From Verrucomicrobium sp. GAS474 (GTDB taxonomy: Bacteria; Verrucomicrobiota; Verrucomicrobiia; Methylacidiphilales; GAS474), in the NCBI RefSeq assembly GCF_900105685.1, contig NZ_LT629781.1, positions 1,302,001 through 1,366,000 on the forward strand: 64,000 nt of DNA, written 5' to 3'. The translations under genes were made by a program, and so were the position numbers. Of this stretch, positions 10,399 through 48,657 are shown in pieces; within the stretch, counting starts at the first letter, position 1, and the number at the start of each line of letters is the position of its first letter. A model generated the notes under the pieces. It saw only the letters and a program-made list of their open reading frames with translations. It searched no databases and had not been told where the DNA came from.

Positions 10399-10647
10399 TT
10401 ATTCCGATTTCTGCTTCCAGGCCGCCTCGCTCTCGCGGACGGCCTTCAGGACGGTCCGCCAGAGGACGACGCCGACGCCGGAGACGGCGGCGAGGAGGAC
10501 CATGACGCTGAGGGAGAAGCCGGCGAGGACGGTGGCGGGCTGACCCGCCTCGGTGCCGAGGGTGACCCCTTCCTTGCACCCCGGGCAGGCGTGGGCGGAG
10601 GCCGCGATCAGCGGCAGGAGGGTCAGGAGCAGGAAGAGCTTTTTCAT
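10399..10647 (-). CDS. Small membrane protein with CPGCK motif
   Basis: 82 residues. An N-terminal signal sequence (KKLFLLLTLLPLIAASAHA) ends just before CPGCKEG, then a single membrane helix (about residues 40-62) and a charged tail. The CxxC directly after the cleavage site could bind a metal or undergo thiol exchange on the periplasmic face. It overlaps the DUF420 gene by 4 bases (ATGA), implying translational coupling, and sits in the SCO/DUF420 cluster. I know of no assigned function; a cytochrome-oxidase assembly role is inference from neighbours. Confidence 0.7.
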   Translation of the reverse strand: MKKLFLLLTLLPLIAASAHACPGCKEGVTLGTEAGQPATVLAGFSLSVMVLLAAVSGVGVVLWRTVLKAVRESEAAWKQKSE

Positions 10648-11204
10648 CGATTATAGATCTTCAGCATCGCGACGACGACGACCCCGGTGACCGAGACGTA
10701 GAGCCAGACGGGGAAGGTCCAGCGGGCGAGCTTCTTGTGCGTGGGGAAGCGGCCGGTGAGGGAGAGGAAGAAGGTGATGAGGATCATCGGGAGGGCGACG
10801 ACGGAGAGGAGGATGTGGGTGATGAGGATCGGGAAGTAGACCCGCCGGATGCCGCCCTGCCCCTGGAAGATCGCGTCCCCGTGGAGGTGGTGGTTCAGGA
10901 TGTAGCTGACGAGGAAGAGGGAGGAGAAGACGAAGGCGGAGAGCATGGCGGCGCGGTGGGCGGCGATCTTCCCCGCCTTGATCTTCACGAAGCCGACGAC
11001 GAGGGCGACGGCGGCGAGGCTGTTCAGGATCGCGTTGAGGGTGGGGAGGAAGACGAGCTCGGTGCCGTCGGCGTCGGCGGGGGGGTGGAAGTAGACGAGC
11101 CAGAAGAGGAAGAGGGCGGCGACGACGCTGACGGCGAGGACGCCGACGATGAGGGCGGGCGGGGTCTTTGCTTCGTTGATCGGGAGGGGGGTGGTCTCTT
11201 GCAT
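10644..11204 (-). CDS. DUF420 (CtaM/YozB-like) membrane protein
   Basis: 186 residues with about five membrane helices. NAILNSLAAVALVVGF, HRAAMLSAFVFSSLF, YILNHHLHGD and an ILITHILLSVVALP stretch give the conserved histidines of the DUF420 family; the staphylococcal member CtaM is needed for heme-copper oxidase assembly. Length is normal. It lies between SCO and the CPGCK protein in one direction with short gaps, so a role in maturing a terminal oxidase is reasonable, although oxidase subunit genes are not next to it. Confidence 0.85.
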   Translation of the reverse strand: MQETTPLPINEAKTPPALIVGVLAVSVVAALFLFWLVYFHPPADADGTELVFLPTLNAILNSLAAVALVVGFVKIKAGKIAAHRAAMLSAFVFSSLFLVSYILNHHLHGDAIFQGQGGIRRVYFPILITHILLSVVALPMILITFFLSLTGRFPTHKKLARWTFPVWLYVSVTGVVVVAMLKIYNR

Positions 11205-11223
11205 GGTCGGGGGAGGGCGGGGG

Positions 11224-11892
11224 CTATTTGATTTTTTCCTCGCGCATCAGCGCGGCGACGTCGGCCAGGAGCTTCGCGGGCGTCTCCTCGTCGAGGCCCT
11301 CGTAGTAGCCCCGGACGGACCCGGCGCCGTCGACGAGGACGACTTTCGTGCTGTGGATCATCCGGGTGGCGGCGGTCGCGCCGGGCTCGGTGTTTTTCTG
11401 GAAGCCGATGAGGAGGCGCTTCATGACGATCTCATGCGTCAGGGCCTCGGCGTCGGGGAGGCCCGAGGCGGTGAGGAAGATCCAGCGGGCGGGATCGGCG
11501 TGATGGAGGGCGGCGTAGGCGCGGAGCTTTTCCGGCGTGTCGTTCTCGGGGTCGATCGAAAGGGCGACGATCTTCACGTTCTGCGCGTTGCCGAGCATCC
11601 CCTGGAGCTGGATCAGGTTCTGGGTGACGGCGGGGCAGGGGCCGCCGCAGTCGGTGAAGAAGAATTGGGCGGCCCAGATTTTCCCCTTCAGGGCGGCGGA
11701 GTCGAAGGGTTGGCTGTCGGCCCCGGTGAGGGTGAAGGGGTCGATGTGGCCGAGCTTCGGCAGGGGCGTCCCCGCAGCGGCCTGCTGCTTCTCCACCTGG
11801 ACGCGGAAGTACCAGAGGACGGCGAGGACGAAGAGGAGGACGACCGAGGCGAGGCGGATGTTGCGGAGCAGGGCGGGAGAGGGGGCGGCCAT
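11224..11892 (-). CDS. SCO1/SenC copper chaperone
   Basis: 222 residues, with an N-terminal membrane anchor (about residues 12-30) and a periplasmic thioredoxin-like domain. The copper-binding CxxxC is C82-GGP-C86, and the third ligand histidine is in RMIHSTKVVLVD near residue 173. SCO proteins deliver copper to the CuA site of cytochrome oxidase or act as thiol reductases. The order ABC ATPase - permease - SCO - DUF420 - CPGCK with gaps of 8-20 bases points to one transcription unit for copper-enzyme maturation. Confidence 0.9.
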   Translation of the reverse strand: MAAPSPALLRNIRLASVVLLFVLAVLWYFRVQVEKQQAAAGTPLPKLGHIDPFTLTGADSQPFDSAALKGKIWAAQFFFTDCGGPCPAVTQNLIQLQGMLGNAQNVKIVALSIDPENDTPEKLRAYAALHHADPARWIFLTASGLPDAEALTHEIVMKRLLIGFQKNTEPGATAATRMIHSTKVVLVDGAGSVRGYYEGLDEETPAKLLADVAALMREEKIK

Positions 11893-40581: not shown

Positions 40582-41391
40582 ATGGAAGACCGGCTCTGGT
40601 TCGCTCTCGGCACCGTGCTGGCCCTGGTCAGCGCGGGCTGGTCGGCCTATGCCTTCGGCGCGGGGCGCTCCCAGCACACGCGCTGGAACAACGCCCTCCT
40701 CCTCCTCGCCTGGCTGGCGATGTCGGTCTTCCTCTCGGAGCGGGGGAAGCGGATCGGCCACTGCCCGCTCACGAACCTCTTCGAGACCCTCGCCTTTCTC
40801 GACTGGTCGCTCCTCCTCACCTACCTCGTCATCGGGACCGCCTACCGCGTCTCGGTCCTCGGGGCCTTCACCGCCCCCGTCGCCGCCGCCACGGGGGTCT
40901 TCGCCTTCATCGTCGCCGTCCCGAGCGACGTCCCCCGGGAGCTGCCCGACCTCGGCTGGCCGCTGGAGCTCCACGCCTCGTTCAGCCTCCTCGCCTACGG
41001 AGCCCTCGGCATCGGGGCCGTCGCCTCGGCCCTCTACCTCGTCCAGGAACGGCAGCTGAAGGACCACCAGCTGCGGCAATGGTTCTACCGCCTCCCCGCG
41101 ATGGGCGACCTCGCCCGGATCCAGCGGCGGGTCCTCGTCTGGGGCTTCGCGCTCCTCACCCTCGGCCTCGTCGCCGGGATCGCGGTGACCCGCGCCGGGG
41201 GGATCGACTGGGTGAAGATCGTCTGGTCGGCGGGCGTCTGGGTCCTCTACCTCCACCTCGTCCTCTCCCCCCGCCTCTTCGGCTTCGGCGCGCGCCGCGT
41301 CGCGTGGTGCTCCGTCGGGAGCTACGTCTTCATCCTGCTCACGTTCTGGGGGATCAACTCCCTGAGCCACGCCCACCGGTTTTCCTCATGA
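40582..41391 (+). CDS. CcsA/HemX-like cytochrome c assembly membrane protein
   Basis: 269 residues with eight membrane helices. The order of helices and the loop LTNLFETLAFLDWS (between helices 2 and 3) plus LHASFSLLAYGALG and NSLSHAHRF near the end match the CcmC/CcsA/HemX family. The tryptophan-rich WWD heme motif is not obvious, so it is closer to HemX, which often sits beside hemA and is thought to affect heme or HemA levels. Its stop overlaps the hemA start by 4 bases (ATGA). Confidence 0.85.
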   Translation: MEDRLWFALGTVLALVSAGWSAYAFGAGRSQHTRWNNALLLLAWLAMSVFLSERGKRIGHCPLTNLFETLAFLDWSLLLTYLVIGTAYRVSVLGAFTAPVAAATGVFAFIVAVPSDVPRELPDLGWPLELHASFSLLAYGALGIGAVASALYLVQERQLKDHQLRQWFYRLPAMGDLARIQRRVLVWGFALLTLGLVAGIAVTRAGGIDWVKIVWSAGVWVLYLHLVLSPRLFGFGARRVAWCSVGSYVFILLTFWGINSLSHAHRFSS

Positions 41392-42587
41392 CCCCGGCAC
41401 CGGAGCCCCGCCCCGATCCCTCCCGCCCCCCGACCTTCGTCTGCGGCGGCCTCTCCTTCAAGGAGGCCCCCGTCGCCGTCCGGGAACGGGCCGCGTTCCG
41501 GGACGAGGCGCTGCCCCAGGCCCTCGTCCGCCTGCGGGAGAACCTCGGCCTGGAGGAGGCCGTCCTCCTCTCGACCTGCAACCGGGTCGAGTTCTTCGGC
41601 GTCGGCCATCCAGCGGAGGAGGCCGCCGCCGGGGGCGTCGGCGATGCGTGGGCCTCGTTCCTCGCCTCGTTCCATGCGGAGCTGGAGGAGCCGGTGCGGG
41701 CGGCCCTCGCGGGCGATTTCGCCGCCCATTCCTTCCGGCTCTCGGGGCGGGCCTCGATCGAGCGGCTCTTCCGTCTCGCCTCGGGCCTCGAATCGATGGT
41801 CGTCGGCGAGACCGAGATCTTCGGCCAGGTGAAGGAGGCCTACCGCGTCGCCGCCGGATCGGGCGCGACGGGGAAGCGCCTCCACCGCCTCTTCCAGGCC
41901 TCGTTCTCGGCGGCGAAGGAAGTCCGCTCGAAGACCCAGATCACCCGCGGCAGCGTTTCGGTGGGCTCCGTCGCCGTCGAGCTGGCGGAGCGGCTCTTCG
42001 GCAGCCTCGCGGGGAAGACGGTGATGGTCCTCGGCGCGGGAGCGACGAGCGAGCGGACCGCCCGCTCCCTCCAGGGCCGGGGCGCGGGCTTCCTCCTCGT
42101 CGCGAACCGGACCTACGAGAAGGCCGAGGCGCTGGCCGCCGAGCTGGGCGGCGAGGCGATCCATTGGGACGCCTTCGAGGCGCGGGTCGAGCAGGCCGAC
42201 ATCGTCGTCAGCTCGACCTCGGCCCCCCACTACGTCCTGACGCGGGAGCGGATCGACCAGGTCCGCCGCCGCCGGGGCGGGCGGCCCCTCTTCCTCATCG
42301 ACCTCGCCGTGCCGCGCGACATCGAGCCCTCCGTCACCCACCTCCCCGACGTCTACCTCTACGACATCGACGACCTCGAGGCGATCGCCCGGACGAACCA
42401 GCGGGAGCGGAGCGCCGAGATCGTCCGCTGCGAGGGGATCCTCGCCCCCCACGTGGAGAAGCTCCTCGCCTGGGAGGCCTCCCTGGCCTCTTCCCTGGCC
42501 GACGCCCAGGCCCAGGCCAAAGACAAGATCAAGCCGTCCTCCTCCGATCTCCCCGATGCCGGGAGCGGAAACTACAGCGCCGCCTAG
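41388..42587 (+). CDS. hemA: Glutamyl-tRNA reductase
   Basis: 399 residues; first step of C5 tetrapyrrole synthesis, reducing Glu-tRNA to glutamate-1-semialdehyde. The catalytic Cys64 lies in LSTCNRVEFF; SFKEAPVAVRERAAF and ETEIFGQVKEAYR follow; the NADPH domain has MVLGAGATSERTARSL; the C-terminal dimerisation helix is included. Translationally coupled to the preceding HemX-like gene and followed by hemC after 18 bases. Confidence 0.97.
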   Translation: MTPAPEPRPDPSRPPTFVCGGLSFKEAPVAVRERAAFRDEALPQALVRLRENLGLEEAVLLSTCNRVEFFGVGHPAEEAAAGGVGDAWASFLASFHAELEEPVRAALAGDFAAHSFRLSGRASIERLFRLASGLESMVVGETEIFGQVKEAYRVAAGSGATGKRLHRLFQASFSAAKEVRSKTQITRGSVSVGSVAVELAERLFGSLAGKTVMVLGAGATSERTARSLQGRGAGFLLVANRTYEKAEALAAELGGEAIHWDAFEARVEQADIVVSSTSAPHYVLTRERIDQVRRRRGGRPLFLIDLAVPRDIEPSVTHLPDVYLYDIDDLEAIARTNQRERSAEIVRCEGILAPHVEKLLAWEASLASSLADAQAQAKDKIKPSSSDLPDAGSGNYSAA

Positions 42588-42605
42588 CCTTTCTTTCTTC
42601 CGCTC

Positions 42606-43535
42606 ATGAAACCTTTCCTCATCGGCACCCGGGGTAGCGCCCTCGCCCTCGCCCAGTGCGGCCAGTTGCGCGCCCGCCTCGCCGCGCTGTTCCCGGAGCG
42701 CGTCTTCGAGCTCTCGATCCTCCGCACGCGGGGGGACGACCTCTCCGCCGCGCGCGACGCGGGGGCTTCCTCGCCTCTCCCTTTGGAGAAGGGCCTTTTC
42801 ACGAAGGAAATCGAGGAGGCTCTCCTCGCCGGGACCATCGACGCCGCCGTCCACAGCCTCAAGGACATGCCGGTCGAGGGGCCCCAGGGGCTCGTCCTCG
42901 GCGCGATCCCGGCGAGGGGCGACGGGGCCGACGTCCTCGTCCTGAAGGGGACCGGCTCCGGGGGGTTCGACACCCTGCCGCACGGCGCGACCGTCGCCAC
43001 GGGCAGCCCCCGGCGGACGGCCCTCCTCCTCCACCTCCGCCCCGATCTCCGCGTCGTCCCGCTGCGGGGTAACATCGATACCCGGCTCCGCAGGCTCCGG
43101 GAAAACGACGGCTGGTCGGCCATCGTCCTCGCCGCCGCCGGACTCGACCGCCTCGCCCCCGACCTCGCCGGGATGGCACTCCATCGCGTGACGCTCCCGC
43201 CCGATCTCTTCCTCCCCGCGCCGGGGCAGGGCGCCCTCGCGTTCCAGATCCGCGCCGGGGACGCCGGGGCCGCGGCCATCGCCGCCGCCCTCGACGACGC
43301 GCCGACCCGGGCCGCCGTCACTGCCGAGCGGGCCTTCCTCTCCGCCCTCGGCGGCGGCTGCCGCGCCCCCCTCGGGGCCTACGCGCGGATCGAGGCCGGA
43401 CGCTTCCGCCTCGACGGCATCGTCTGGAAAAAAGAGGATCGCCCCGCCTTCAGCGGTTTCGTCGAAGGGGCGGCGGACGAAGCCGAGGCGCTGGGCCGCG
43501 CGCTGGGCCGCGAACTCCTGGAGGCGGTCGAATGA
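42606..43535 (+). CDS. hemC: Hydroxymethylbilane synthase (porphobilinogen deaminase)
   Basis: 309 residues; polymerises four porphobilinogen units. IGTRGSALALAQ at the N-terminus, HSLKDMPV, GSPRRTALL and the dipyrromethane-cofactor cysteine in LGGGCRAPLGAY (Cys252) are all present. It overlaps the next gene by 4 bases (ATGA). Standard length. Confidence 0.97.
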   Translation: MKPFLIGTRGSALALAQCGQLRARLAALFPERVFELSILRTRGDDLSAARDAGASSPLPLEKGLFTKEIEEALLAGTIDAAVHSLKDMPVEGPQGLVLGAIPARGDGADVLVLKGTGSGGFDTLPHGATVATGSPRRTALLLHLRPDLRVVPLRGNIDTRLRRLRENDGWSAIVLAAAGLDRLAPDLAGMALHRVTLPPDLFLPAPGQGALAFQIRAGDAGAAAIAAALDDAPTRAAVTAERAFLSALGGGCRAPLGAYARIEAGRFRLDGIVWKKEDRPAFSGFVEGAADEAEALGRALGRELLEAVE

Positions 43536-45070
43536 GCCAGAGCCGTTCTGCCAACTCCAAGGGCATCGCCTACCTCGTCGGGGCCGGTCCGGGCGATCCC
43601 GGGCTCCTCACCCTCCGGGGCCGCGACCTCATCGCCCGCGCCGACGTCGTCATCTACGATTACCTCTGCAACCCGGAGCACCTCGACCACGCCCGCCCCG
43701 ACGCGGAGATCCTCTATGCCGGAAAAAGCGGCGGGAACCACACCCTCACCCAGGACCAGATCAACGCCCTGATCGTCGAGAAGACCCGGGCGGGCCTCAC
43801 TGTCGTCCGGCTGAAGGGGGGCGATCCGTTCGTCTTCGGCCGGGGCGGGGAGGAGGCGCAGGAACTCGTCGCCGCCGGCCTCGCCTTCGAGGTCGTCCCC
43901 GGCATCACCTCGGCCATCGCCGCCCCGGCCTACGCGGGGATCCCGATCACCCATCGCGATTTCGCCTCCGGCTTCACCGTCCTCACCGGGCATGAGGATC
44001 CGACGAAGGAAAATTCGGCGATCGATTGGGCGGCCCTCGCCCGCTTCCAGGGGACGAAGGTCGTCCTCATGGGGGTCGAGCGGCTCCGCGCCGTGACCGG
44101 ATCGCTCCTCGCCCACGGGGCCGATCCCGCCACGCCCGCCGCCCTCGTCCGCTGGGGGACGTGGGCGAAGCAGGAGACCCTGACGGCGACCCTCGCCACC
44201 CTCGCCGACGAGGCCGAGGCGCGGGGCTTCAAGGCCCCTGCCGTCACCCTCATCGGCGGCGTCGTCTCGCTCCGGGCCGAGCTCGACTGGGTCGGCGCGC
44301 GGCCCCTCTTCGGGCAACGGATCGTCGTCACCCGGACGCGGACCCAGGCCGGGGCGCTCTCCGCGCGGCTCCGCGAGCTGGGGGCCGACGTCCTCGAGAT
44401 CCCGACGATCCGGCTGGAGCCCCTTCCCGTCCCCGCCGAGGACGAGGCGGCGTGGAGCGACTTCGCCAACCGCTTCGACTGGCTCCTCCTCACCAGCCCG
44501 AACGCCGCCGACCTCTTCTTCGACCGCTTCCTCGAGCGGCACGGGGACATCCGCGCCCTCGGCGCGGTGAAGATCGCCGTCGTCGGCCCCGGCACGGCGG
44601 CGAAGGTCGGCGCTCGGGCGCTCGGCATCGCCCTCCAGCCGAAGGTCTTCACCGCCGAGGGGCTGGCCGCGGCCTTCGCCGACGGCGAGGTGAAGGGGAA
44701 GCGGTTCTGCTTCGCCCGCGCCGACCTCGCGGGCGAGGTCCTTCCCGATTCCCTCCGCGCCCGGGGCGGCGAGGTGTCCGAGTGGACGCTCTACCGCACC
44801 GTTCCCGAGACCGGGGACCGGGACCGGAAGGGGACGCGGAAGCGTTTCGCCGAGGAAGGGGCGTCGTGGATCACCTTCGCGAGCGCGAGCGCGGCGGAGA
44901 GCTGGCACCGGCTCGGCCTCGCCCATCCTTCCACTCCCGGCCCCCGGATCGCCAGCATCGGTCCCGTCACCAGCGAGGCGCTCCGCCGCCTCGGCTACAC
45001 CGTCGATATCGAGGCGAAGGAGCAGACCCTGTCGGGACTGGTCGACGCCCTGATTTCCGCCGCCCGCTAA
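43532..45070 (+). CDS. cobA/hemD: Uroporphyrinogen-III C-methyltransferase / uroporphyrinogen-III synthase fusion
   Basis: 512 residues. Residues ~8-255 are SUMT (CobA): YLVGAGPGDPGLLTLRG, VVRLKGGDPFVFGRGGEE, and VPGITSAIAAPAYAGIPITHR. Residues ~260-512 are HemD: QRIVVTRTRTQAGALSARL, ITFASASAAESW and a C-terminal SGLVDAL. The fusion makes uroporphyrinogen III and also methylates it toward siroheme or B12. Such fusions are common in several Gram-negative and Gram-positive phyla. Last core gene of the heme operon; a TPR protein follows after 6 bases. Confidence 0.95.
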   Translation: MSQSRSANSKGIAYLVGAGPGDPGLLTLRGRDLIARADVVIYDYLCNPEHLDHARPDAEILYAGKSGGNHTLTQDQINALIVEKTRAGLTVVRLKGGDPFVFGRGGEEAQELVAAGLAFEVVPGITSAIAAPAYAGIPITHRDFASGFTVLTGHEDPTKENSAIDWAALARFQGTKVVLMGVERLRAVTGSLLAHGADPATPAALVRWGTWAKQETLTATLATLADEAEARGFKAPAVTLIGGVVSLRAELDWVGARPLFGQRIVVTRTRTQAGALSARLRELGADVLEIPTIRLEPLPVPAEDEAAWSDFANRFDWLLLTSPNAADLFFDRFLERHGDIRALGAVKIAVVGPGTAAKVGARALGIALQPKVFTAEGLAAAFADGEVKGKRFCFARADLAGEVLPDSLRARGGEVSEWTLYRTVPETGDRDRKGTRKRFAEEGASWITFASASAAESWHRLGLAHPSTPGPRIASIGPVTSEALRRLGYTVDIEAKEQTLSGLVDALISAAR

Positions 45071-45483: not shown

Positions 45484-45915
45484 ATGAAGATCTCGCAATT
45501 GACCAGCGCCCAGCTCGGGGAACTCTCGAAACTCGTCGCGCTGAAGGAAAAGCTCCAGGGCGAATTCAAGAAGCTCGAGGCCGAACTGCAGGCCGTCGAG
45601 GCCAAGCTCGAGAACATCGGCGGCGGCGTCGCCGGGGGCAGGCGCCGGGGCCGTCCCGTCGGGAGCAAGGGCAAGGCCAAGGGCTCCACGGCGACCGGCA
45701 AGAAGCGCGGCCCGAAGAAGGGCTCGAAGCCGGGCTACCTCAAGGCCCAGGTCGTCGAGGCACTGAAGGTCGCCGGGGCCGCGGGCCTCACGATCAAGGA
45801 ACTCGCCGCCGAGGTCGGCTCGAAGCCGAACAACCTGAACAGCTGGTTCTACACGACGGGGAAGAAGGTCGCGAAGAAGCTGGCCGACGGGAAGTATGTC
45901 CTCAGCGGTAAATAG
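45484..45915 (+). CDS. Coiled-coil, AT-hook and winged-helix-like DNA-binding protein
   Basis: 143 residues in three parts: a coiled coil (about 4-45, LVALKEKLQGEFKKLEAELQ), a basic Gly/Lys linker with two AT-hook-like cores (RRRGRPVGSKGK and KKRGPKKGSK, about 53-82), and a C-terminal helical domain (AQVVEALKVAGAAGLTIKELAAEVGS and NNLNSWFY) resembling a winged helix. It should bind AT-rich DNA as a dimer, in the manner of nucleoid proteins. It is set apart by an AT-rich 74-base leader and followed by a strong terminator, so it is monocistronic. No named family recognised. Confidence 0.85.
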   Translation: MKISQLTSAQLGELSKLVALKEKLQGEFKKLEAELQAVEAKLENIGGGVAGGRRRGRPVGSKGKAKGSTATGKKRGPKKGSKPGYLKAQVVEALKVAGAAGLTIKELAAEVGSKPNNLNSWFYTTGKKVAKKLADGKYVLSGK

Positions 45916-45969
45916 GAAACGCGGAAAGTAATTTCGCCGCACCTGTTTTAAATTCGTTTTAAAGTAAGG

Positions 45970-46002
45970 GGGCGCACGGTATATATGCCGTGCGCCCTTT
46001 TT
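45970..46002 (+). terminator. Rho-independent terminator
   Basis: An inverted repeat of about 12 bases (GGGCGCACGG and CCGTGCGCCC as arms around TATATAT) followed directly by TTTTT at 45998-46002. It ends the AT-hook gene transcript 55 bases after its stop. The cytochrome operon start codon follows 13 bases later. Confidence 0.9.
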
Positions 46003-46014
46003 GTTTTTTAATCC

Positions 46015-47055
46015 GTGAAGAAACGCCTCCTTCTTTTCCTGGCCTGGCTCGGTTTGTTCCTGGGGGCGCTCTCCGCCGTCGAGGTCTCGGCGGCGGTCGT
46101 GGGATGGGGAGGGGAAGGCGGTTTCGGATGGACCGCCGTCCGCATCCATCGGTTGATCCTGGTGGCGGGCGGCTTCTGCGCCGGGTGGGCGGCCTTTGCC
46201 GGCGGCGGGATCGGGCCGCTTCTCTCGCCCCGGACGGTCGCGGAGCGTTATGCCTCGGCGGGATTCTTTTTCCTGATCCTTTGGGTGGTCCTCCCGGGCG
46301 GCGCAGCCCTCCCCTCGGGCGCGGCGTGGACCGCCTCCGGGCTGCTATTCCTGTGGATGGCTCCGCTCTCGCTCGCGGCCCTGTGTCGCGCGTTGCCGGA
46401 GCGGGCGGGGCGGGGCGGGCTGCCGGAGGAGGGGGCGGCCCGATTCGGGTTTTGGATCCTGGTTCTGTTCGGCGGCTGGGCCGGGGCGGCCCGGGTCGCC
46501 TCGGGGCCGGTCCCGGCGTGGGTCGGGACGGCGGGGGTCGCCGCCGTCCTGCTGCTGGCCCTCGCCGGGGTGGCGTGGTGCGTGGTGCTGGCCGCGCTCT
46601 TCCGGGACGGGGGCTGGGACCGGATTCGCCATGGGGCGGGGGGCGGCTTCCTGCTGGCCGCGGCCCTGGCGTTTCCGCTGTGGCTGGCGCTGGTCTGGAT
46701 CGGCTCCTTCCGGGGTCTCGGCGCGCATCTCCATCTGACCCTCTTTGACGCGGCGGTCGATGACATCGCGGTGCCGGGGCTGGGCGCGATGGCGTTCCTC
46801 GGCTACTTCGCCCGTCCCGTCCGGGCGCATCGCGCGGCGTTCTGGCTCTATGCGGGCGGCTTCGTTTTCCTGATCGGGGGCGGGCTGGCTGGCGGCATCC
46901 TGCAGGCTTTGGCCTTCACCGATCGGGCGGTCCCGTTCGCGGCGGTCGGCAGCTTGTTGAAACCGTTGCTTTGGATGCGGCTGATCGGGTGGGGAGCGAT
47001 GGGGACCGCGCTGATCGTCTACGGGTGGGGATTTTTTGAGAGGAGGGCGAAATGA
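46015..47055 (+). CDS. CcoN-like membrane protein lacking a Cu-B site
   Basis: 346 residues, GTG start, about nine membrane helices. VRIHRLILVAGGFCAGW (His45) resembles the low-spin heme helix of CcoN, AHLHLTLFDA (His238, His240) resembles the HxH of the late CcoN helix, and WMRLIGWGAMGTALIVYGW is like CcoN's last helix. No His pair or upstream His for Cu-B exists; only five or so histidines are present, and the protein is some 130 residues shorter than CcoN. It overlaps the CcoO-like gene by 4 bases. It is probably a heme-b protein passing electrons to or from the cytochromes, not an oxidase. Homology is a judgement from motifs. Confidence 0.6.
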   Translation: MKKRLLLFLAWLGLFLGALSAVEVSAAVVGWGGEGGFGWTAVRIHRLILVAGGFCAGWAAFAGGGIGPLLSPRTVAERYASAGFFFLILWVVLPGGAALPSGAAWTASGLLFLWMAPLSLAALCRALPERAGRGGLPEEGAARFGFWILVLFGGWAGAARVASGPVPAWVGTAGVAAVLLLALAGVAWCVVLAALFRDGGWDRIRHGAGGGFLLAAALAFPLWLALVWIGSFRGLGAHLHLTLFDAAVDDIAVPGLGAMAFLGYFARPVRAHRAAFWLYAGGFVFLIGGGLAGGILQALAFTDRAVPFAAVGSLLKPLLWMRLIGWGAMGTALIVYGWGFFERRAK

Positions 47056-47543
47056 ACGGGCGGCTCGCCTTCTTCGGCCTCCTCGCCGCCGCGACGCTCT
47101 TTTCGTGGTGCGGGCTGGTGCAATGGCCGTCCGCGCAGATGGCCGAGTTGGTTCCGAAGCATCCCGAACTCCGCGACGGCCAGATCGTCGAGGCGGAGGG
47201 GGACGTGATCGCCAAGTCGCTCTACCGATGGCAGGGCTGCTTCGTCTGCCACACGCGGCAGGTCGGTCCCGCCGACATTGCCTACGGGTGGGAGACGGAG
47301 CGGACGGGGCCGGTCGCCTGGGCCCGGCTCGGCATCCCGCCGGAGGGCGCGGACGGCGTCGTCGGCCTTTCCCGGATCGGTCCCGACCTGAGCCATCTCT
47401 CCGGGCGCTATACGCCGGAGGCGTTGGCGCGGTTTCTCTCCGGCCATCACGCGATGCCGCCGGACGGGACGTCTTCCCCGGAGCGGCTGGCAGCGTGGCT
47501 TCTCCAGTCGGAGAAAAAGGATGAGAGGGGAGCGAGGCCGTGA
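47052..47543 (+). CDS. CcoO-like monoheme cytochrome c
   Basis: 163 residues. An N-terminal membrane anchor (about 5-22), then a single heme site GCFVCHTRQVGP and RIGPDLSHLSGRY, which match CcoO (usual TGPDLAR-GGKY), with a likely axial Met in HHAMPPDG. Usual CcoO is about 200 residues. ATG overlaps the stop of the upstream membrane protein and its stop overlaps the next gene (GTGA), so all three are coupled. Confidence 0.85.
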   Translation: MNGRLAFFGLLAAATLFSWCGLVQWPSAQMAELVPKHPELRDGQIVEAEGDVIAKSLYRWQGCFVCHTRQVGPADIAYGWETERTGPVAWARLGIPPEGADGVVGLSRIGPDLSHLSGRYTPEALARFLSGHHAMPPDGTSSPERLAAWLLQSEKKDERGARP

Positions 47544-48181
47544 GCGATCTTTCTCCTCCTGTTCCTCCCTCCGCCCCGCGCTGGCTGACCCTCCTCGCCG
47601 GGATCGCGGGGCTGTGGGCGCTGAGCTATCTCTTCCTCTACAACGGCGGGTTCGACGGCGCGACGGTCGACGAGAACGCGACCTTCGCCGCGGCAGGCGA
47701 CGCGGGCGGCGAGGCCGATCCGGTGGCGATGGGGAAGAAGCTCTACCGCCGGAACTGCCTCGCCTGCCACGGCGCGGAGGGGCGGGGCCTGCCGGGGCAA
47801 TATCCGCCGCTGGCGGGATCGGAGATCGTCCTCTCGAAGGAGGGCTTCGGGGAGAACCACCTCGCGTGGATCGTCCTCGACGGCCTCGTCGGGCCGGTGC
47901 GGGTGGCGGGCGCGCCGCAGTGCAACGGGGCGATGGTGCCGTGGAAGGGCTATTTCGACGACGCGAAGCTGGCGGCGGTCCTGACCTACATCCGGCAGGA
48001 GTGGGGGAACGCCGCGCCGCCGATCGCCCCGGAAGGGGTCGCGGCGGCGAGGGCGGCCTCGGACGCCGGGGCGCGGCGGGGACCGTGGACGATCCCGGCG
48101 CTGCTGCAGCATCCCGCGGAGGCGTTGCCGCAGGGCCCTCTTCCCGTCGCCCCCAAAAAAGAGTCAGGCACCCCTCCGTGA
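47540..48181 (+). CDS. Membrane-anchored cytochrome c (CcoP-like)
   Basis: 213 residues, GTG start. One N-terminal membrane segment (about 16-36) is followed by a class I cytochrome c domain with heme motif CLACHGAEGRGLPGQ, PPLAGSEIV and a C-terminal PWKGYFDDAKLAAVLTYIRQEWGN; axial Met in GAMVPWKG. Only one CxxCH, unlike the two of typical CcoP. A Pro/Ala-rich tail ends the protein. The last codons overlap the hairpin that terminates the opposite-strand rnpB. Confidence 0.88.
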   Translation: MSDLSPPVPPSAPRWLTLLAGIAGLWALSYLFLYNGGFDGATVDENATFAAAGDAGGEADPVAMGKKLYRRNCLACHGAEGRGLPGQYPPLAGSEIVLSKEGFGENHLAWIVLDGLVGPVRVAGAPQCNGAMVPWKGYFDDAKLAAVLTYIRQEWGNAAPPIAPEGVAAARAASDAGARRGPWTIPALLQHPAEALPQGPLPVAPKKESGTPP

Positions 48182-48196
48182 AGAGGGATGCCTGAC
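48155..48196 (-). terminator. Terminator of rnpB
   Basis: A 16-base-class inverted repeat (arms GTCAGGCA at 48163-48170 and TGCCTGAC at 48189-48196, with CCCTC/GAGGG inside) is followed, reading the minus strand, by CTTTTTT (AAAAAA at 48155-48160 on the plus strand). It therefore terminates RNase P RNA. It lies over the final codons and stop of the CcoP-like gene. Confidence 0.85.
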
Positions 48197-48206
48197 ATAG
48201 TGCATC

Positions 48207-48657
48207 GTGCGTCCGGACCTAAGCCGAATTCTGTCCCGGGCGGAGGCCGATGCGCCTGCCGTCCCTTGGGCCGTCATTTCTCTGCCGCCGTCGTTTCTTG
48301 CGGAACGACCGGCGGCCCCGATCAGTGACCGTGGTGCGGCCTAACCCGGAACCGGATCTCCCTCTTGCGAGGGGAATCGGATCAGGCGATCCTGGGATCG
48401 GTCCCTGTTCGGCCTTGCATCGCGTGGGGTTTATCGCTTCCCGCCGTTGCCGGGGGAAGGGTGGGCTCTTACCCCGCCTTTTCACCCTTTCCGGAAGGGT
48501 CTCCCCTCCCGGTGGTCTTCTTTTCTGTGACACTTTCCATGCCGCTCCGCTTGCGCGTGAACGGCTCCGCTGTCTTCCGGCGGCACGCTGCCTGACGATG
48601 TTCGGACTTTCCTCCCGGAAGGAGTGACCCTCCCGAGCGACGACCGTCCGGACGCCT
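48207..48657 (-). ncRNA. rnpB: RNase P RNA, bacterial type A
   Basis: Read on the minus strand, the classic conserved blocks appear in order. GAGGAAAGTCCGAACATCG lies near the 5' end (plus-strand 48594-48615 as TGTTCGGACTTTCCTC). The 3' end has ACAGAATTCGGCTTA (plus-strand TAAGCCGAATTCTGT at 48219-48233). The termini pair as P1: GCGTCCGGAC at 48646-48655 with GTCCGGACGC at 48209-48218. Length about 450 nt is normal for the catalytic RNA that matures tRNA 5' ends. The protein partner gene rnpA is not in the window. Exact ends are estimated from P1. Confidence 0.97.

Follow-up and report, generated by a model that had tools for sequence, protein, structure and literature searches.

According to PMC8498564, the ACIII genes of verrucomicrobial methanotrophs directly adjoin those of a cbb3-type oxidase, and this pairing of a C-type oxidase with ACIII is restricted to these methanotrophs and to Opitutaceae. 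The cbb3 assignment is repeated in PMC6688271, PMC10205796, and PMC8170126, and PMC4358385 infers oxygen removal by the Opitutaceae strain TAV5 from its cbb3 gene. PMC8267372 describes CcoS as required for heme b, heme b3, and CuB in CcoN; a complex made without CcoS assembles yet is inactive. A second kind of described system, the ACIII ActE and supercomplex relays outlined in PMC8552683, uses membrane-bound monoheme cytochromes to carry electrons from quinol oxidation to aa3/caa3.

The window analyzed here is a 64-kb stretch of the complete genome (3.76 Mb) of Verrucomicrobium sp. GAS474 (G000). On its forward strand it encodes a trio of genes: N (46015..47055; GTG start, 346 aa), a shortened CcoN-like membrane protein predicted to be ligand-free; O (47052..47543; 163 aa, CFVCH), a CcoO-like membrane-anchored monoheme cytochrome c; and P (47540..48181; 213 aa, CLACH), its CcoP-like counterpart. 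The three open reading frames described in an earlier note on this DNA hold up, as does their coupling through an ATGA overlap between N and O and a GTGA overlap between O and P. The trio resembles cbb3 CcoNOP (3mk7, 8smr) in the fold of N, in the N-O-P gene order, and in its monoheme O; in contrast, it lacks the ligands for heme b, heme b3, and CuB, the catalytic Tyr, and a nearby CcoS, its P has one heme, and its N is missing about 130 residues ahead of helix VI. It belongs to the same family as the ACIII-adjacent "cbb3 oxidase" of methanotrophs and Opitutaceae, but stands without ACIII and has a shorter N; the Methylacidiphilum copies are likewise ligand-free. PMC8498564 and PMC6688271 treat that complex as a working oxidase, whereas we read the window trio as a non-oxidase.

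A strong intrinsic terminator (45966..46010, plus strand; 16-pair stem and T tail) ends 4-5 bases 5' of the GTG of N and, by alignment of the upstream region, is also kept in the congener G002. We searched upstream of N for a sigma-70-like promoter and found none. Given the terminator and the lack of a promoter-like site, the trio may be weakly expressed. No gene was called in 45915-46015, and none between the trio and its upstream terminator. Further upstream, 40582-45070 holds heme synthesis-like genes that we take to be HemA, HemC, and CobA/HemD, and at 10399-11892 on the minus strand lie small genes that presumably resemble oxidase-assembly factors of the DUF420 and SCO kinds. Beside the 3' end of P, the RNase P RNA (RF00010) occupies 48204-48656 on the minus strand, and its terminator-like hairpin (48163-48196, minus strand) overlaps the end of P.

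On its own, N has no useful match in Pfam or NCBIfam, and no solved structure was matched by its sequence. The earlier note had proposed comparing N with CcoN and NorB by profile; a 19-row profile of the N family matched CcoN of 3mk7 with E 3.3e-68 (233.9 bits) and NorB with E 5.3e-11 (45.3 bits), which puts CcoN far ahead, and on these scores we rejected a NorB-like identity. The structural model of window N (pLDDT 80.5, pTM 0.81) has high confidence beyond about residue 100 and is poor over residues 1-80. Both Foldseek and VIA-align rank CcoN first for this model (8smr_E, Z 33, rmsd 2.6 Å, 325 aligned), and it shows the CcoN fold of the C-family heme-copper oxygen reductases. By profile and by modelled fold, N is a relative of CcoN, subunit I of cbb3. 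As had been noticed before, N is much shorter than CcoN and retains a CcoN-like C-terminal half: compared with the N of a relative, L043, about 130 residues are missing before helix VI. Among helices I-VI, the profile recognizes only helix VI (z 8.2); helix II is not recognizable in residues 1-100 (z 1.8), and a helix-by-helix assignment of that stretch failed. In lying outside a standard operon, N is like the orphan CcoN of Pseudomonas, whose orphan subunits are reportedly catalytically active.

To read the ligand positions, we aligned 93 N-like proteins and window N with MAFFT, taking the 3mk7 CcoN sequence as reference, and scored seven catalytic columns (H60, H207, Y251, H257, H258, H345, and H347 in 3mk7 numbering). 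Window N has E, S, G, A, R, V, and D in these columns; the first is uncertain, MAFFT placing Glu23 in the column of H60, a low-spin heme b ligand in helix II, where that helix goes unrecognized. The CuB ligands H207, H257, and H258 are replaced by Ser, Ala, and Arg, confirming that N has no CuB histidines, and Tyr251 is replaced by Gly. The heme b3 ligand H345 corresponds to Val248 and the low-spin heme b ligand H347 to Asp250, in a region of the model with pLDDT > 90. Judged by position, window N has no CuB, no heme b3, and no canonical low-spin heme b site. That the window trio is not an oxidase is well supported; the lost ligand columns, together with the CcoN profile and fold, bear out the idea of a cbb3-derived, non-oxidase module without an oxygen site that is coupled to two cytochromes.

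How do the relatives compare? With N as query, 49 of the 98 related genomes gave a match. Almost all matches outside the genus are about 500 aa long and align mostly over query residues 80-340; a few frames are shorter, with lengths as low as 433 and 151 aa, and some of these at least lie at contig ends. The short form occurs only in G000 and G002 among 62 genomes of the order, the third congener, G001, giving a partial match. At the level of the class, the N-family profile matched 310 of 384 genomes; other CcoN and heme-copper oxidases of more distant kinship may be among these matches. The gene order in relatives is ActB, NrfD-like ActC, ActD, ActE, and ActF, which make up ACIII, followed by N-O-P; Pfam confirmed ActD as PF11821 in L043 and likewise the NrfD identity of ActC. 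An ActC, ActE, or ActF homologue lies upstream of the trio in 86 of 93 loci, and ACIII is the decisive context for the trio. We rejected the stronger statement that the trio always stands behind ACIII, given seven of the 93 loci without ACIII upstream, some with little upstream sequence (L014, L017, L018, L163) and others with enough room (L049, L141, L033).

All seven catalytic residues (HHYHHHH) are found at 35 of these 93 loci, and the set is degraded at the other 58 and in the window; the loci are not a random sample (they combine relatives, picks among the top-scoring matches listed in the class search, and the best 80 ActC matches), and we therefore rejected any claim about the frequency of the degraded form. 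Among named public-genome loci behind ActC, N is intact in 7 of 49 scorable cases, a set drawn from the best 80 ActC loci, 53 of which have an N match, with four fragmentary ones (L195, L197, L251, L259) left out. MAGs labelled Opitutus, Prosthecobacter, and Rubritalea have a degraded N. On a tree of 94 rows (L102 was left out), at least three changes between the intact and degraded states are needed; the window, L052, L047, and L100 sit on long branches, so their placement is unsure. One genome, G373, carries a degraded and an intact copy (L162, L163) on different contigs. By inspection of the locus table, COX genes lie downstream of the trio in both states.

The loss of ligands goes together with the loss of CcoS. 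CcoS (PF03597) lies directly upstream of N at 42 of 42 intact loci and at 2 of 99 degraded ones, a count that leaves out L018, where the upstream sequence is missing. The two degraded loci with CcoS (L162 and L192) have short tail matches and belong to a type that keeps H60 and H347. Neither the window locus, with no called gene in the interval upstream of N, nor the G002 locus, where we looked at the locus only, has a CcoS nearby.

The cytochromes, in contrast, keep their heme motifs in both intact and degraded states. P is a one-heme membrane cytochrome c as described previously, with matches to Pfam Cytochrom_C (8e-10) and Cytochrome_CBB3 (7.7e-9), and CxxCH and an axial Met are present in 90 of 90 aligned members of its family. 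O had been called clearly CcoO-like; it aligns with O of the relatives and has the features of a monoheme CcoO, CFVCH and an aligned axial Met within HHAMPP, but library models score weakly (FixO 0.0097, ccoO 0.0021). CxxCH is found in 88 of 89 O proteins. Their axial Met is present at 33 of 33 intact loci and in 36 of the 56 proteins of the degraded group; the remaining 20 lack Met at this position, where Cys is a common residue. Because the Met is also missing from O of G002, O may be eroding as well. Over all aligned O, Cys takes the place of the axial Met in 13 of 89 (L018, L020, L023, L030, L031, L037, L039, L042, L045, and others).

The ligand-free form extends to the methanotrophs. The Methylacidiphilaceae-type N comprises 12 proteins in 13 genomes, all ligand-free (one truncated) save for a His in the H258 column, and we found no other strong CcoN match in those 13 genomes. 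We equate the family code with Methylacidiphilaceae because ActC of L100 (G014) is 98% identical to ActC of Methylacidiphilum sp. Yel, an isolate whose own N is ligand-free, reading SESSHFV at the seven columns. The model of the ligand-free Methylacidiphilum N is a complete CcoN fold (pLDDT 90, Z 48.4), and Pfam COX1 accepts the protein with 50.2 bits against a cut-off of 34.8. In the open-access literature covered, we found no report of the ligand-free form.

On balance we favor reading the window trio as a pseudo-cbb3 module in which a ligand-free N is the scaffold and O and P relay electrons from quinol oxidation to another oxidase or periplasmic acceptor. N derives from a CcoN whose cbb3-type complex was encoded behind ACIII, and it no longer has ligation for CuB, heme b3, or a canonical low-spin heme b; with no metal sites, it could only be a membrane scaffold. 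In keeping with this origin, the congener G001 still has an ActE-like cytochrome directly ahead of its trio. O and P retain covalent c-type hemes, which face the periplasm, and may act as an electron relay. ACIII is the probable donor in relatives, and the bc complex in the window genus, which lacks ActC and ActB. Electrons would then pass to a terminal oxidase of the caa3/aa3 kind or to some other periplasmic acceptor. The ancestry of N, its missing ligands, the c hemes kept across the family, the ACIII neighborhood of the relatives, the joint loss of CcoS, and purifying selection are shown by the sequences, whereas formation of an N-O-P complex, the direction of electron flow, the partner, and expression are parts of this scheme that we infer. 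Such a relay would be like those of ActE and the ACIII supercomplexes in using membrane-bound monoheme cytochromes, but its subunits are unrelated to those described in PMC8552683, and its hemes would sit on an oxidase-derived scaffold.

The respiratory background of the genus could also suggest that the trio is a functionless, decaying relic of an ACIII-cbb3 operon. ActC is present in 76 of 98 relatives and absent in all three of G000, G001, and G002; ActB gives weak 31% partial matches to frames of 620-636 aa in both G000 and G002 and no match in G001, and none of the three has the ActB and ActC of an ACIII. G000 has a bc complex with cytochrome b fused to cytochrome c, adjoining caa3-type oxidase genes, which could have replaced ACIII, and a genome-wide PF00034 search gave five cytochrome c domains. 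A full ccoNOP, whose co-occurrence with the trio the earlier note had raised, was not found in G000. Decay would also fit the shortened N, the O of G002 without its axial Met, the terminator before N, and the split N of G001, which lies in two frames through either decay or an assembly error. The genes of G001 run in the order ActE-like cytochrome, a small ORF, the split N, O, and P. We nevertheless consider a relic unlikely, since the trio recurs in G002 with its GTG start and with many flanking genes in common (N is 62% identical at the amino acid level), and open reading frames, overlaps, and c hemes are kept between G000 and G002. The dN/dS values of this pair are 0.21 for N, 0.26 for O, and 0.29 for P, the first two being rough because the dS of N and O (~1.5) is near saturation. 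That dS far exceeds the 0.3-0.7 of P and neighboring genes, perhaps through recombination or a composition shift. The start codon, flanks, and dN/dS of the G002 trio, along with the third trio in G001, also led us to reject chance ORFs. Beyond the genus, degraded N has dN/dS of 0.06-0.35 in 11 pairs (12 were tried, one of which was saturated), arguing that long-lived degraded clades are under purifying selection.

Less probable still is a cbb3-derived module that keeps its low-spin heme b and links quinol/heme b with O/P by electron transfer through the membrane. This combination of kept low-spin heme b ligands and a lost O2 site does exist elsewhere: an HNSQRYH or HNAQRYH N, with H60 and H347 retained, occurs in L038, L139, and L162, and HNSQRYH also in L188, L191, L192, L196, L199, and L201, as well as in L194, which is cut before H60. 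By position, however, it is absent from window N, where Val248 and Asp250 replace H345 and H347. The earlier note had assigned CcoN-like heme b helices on the strength of His45 and His238-x-His240, residues that are common to the window and G002, and had proposed electron movement between quinol or heme and a periplasmic acceptor. This heme assignment fails. His240 aligns with 3mk7 His337, 8 positions before H345, and the model puts His238 close to where a short helix ends and His240 in the loop that leads into helix X; we therefore rejected the pair as heme ligands. His45 falls within the poorly modelled stretch and is unassignable to any CcoN helix; an early manual alignment that equated it with H60 was dropped because helix II is unrecognizable there and because in the G002 and G001 sequences the residue is shifted or missing. 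No CcoS lies upstream of the G002 trio, and no gene was called between the window trio and its terminator. By position, window N has neither low-spin heme b ligands nor a b3/CuB site, which makes it unlikely that heme b passes electrons across the membrane here.

That N is a dead chaperone or a redox/O2 signal partner with no relay role, which a dead scaffold with two c hemes would also fit, is very improbable, since no recognized signaling gene consistently adjoins the trio by inspection of the relatives' gene tables and the P heme motif and axial Met are invariant (90/90), as in electron carriers.

Returning to the pseudo-cbb3 module, we think the pattern probably applies well beyond the window: in Verrucomicrobiota, the cbb3-like complex encoded after ACIII would be a non-oxidase in many lineages, including Methylacidiphilum, having lost CcoS and the ligands of N, with O and P as a relay, and in the window genus the scaffold would have outlived ACIII. 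Heme-copper oxidases are usually called by family membership, and Pfam COX1 still accepts a ligand-free protein. If our reading is true, the published assignment of a third, cbb3-type oxidase to verrucomicrobial methanotrophs would be wrong, and respiratory-chain schemes for these methanotrophs and other Verrucomicrobiota would need revising, as would inferences of microaerobic life that rest on a "cbb3" gene. ACIII would gain a previously unseen electron-exit module, and the family would offer a case in which the active site of a catalytic membrane enzyme has disappeared, with at least three such losses on the tree, and its electron-carrying partners have been conserved.
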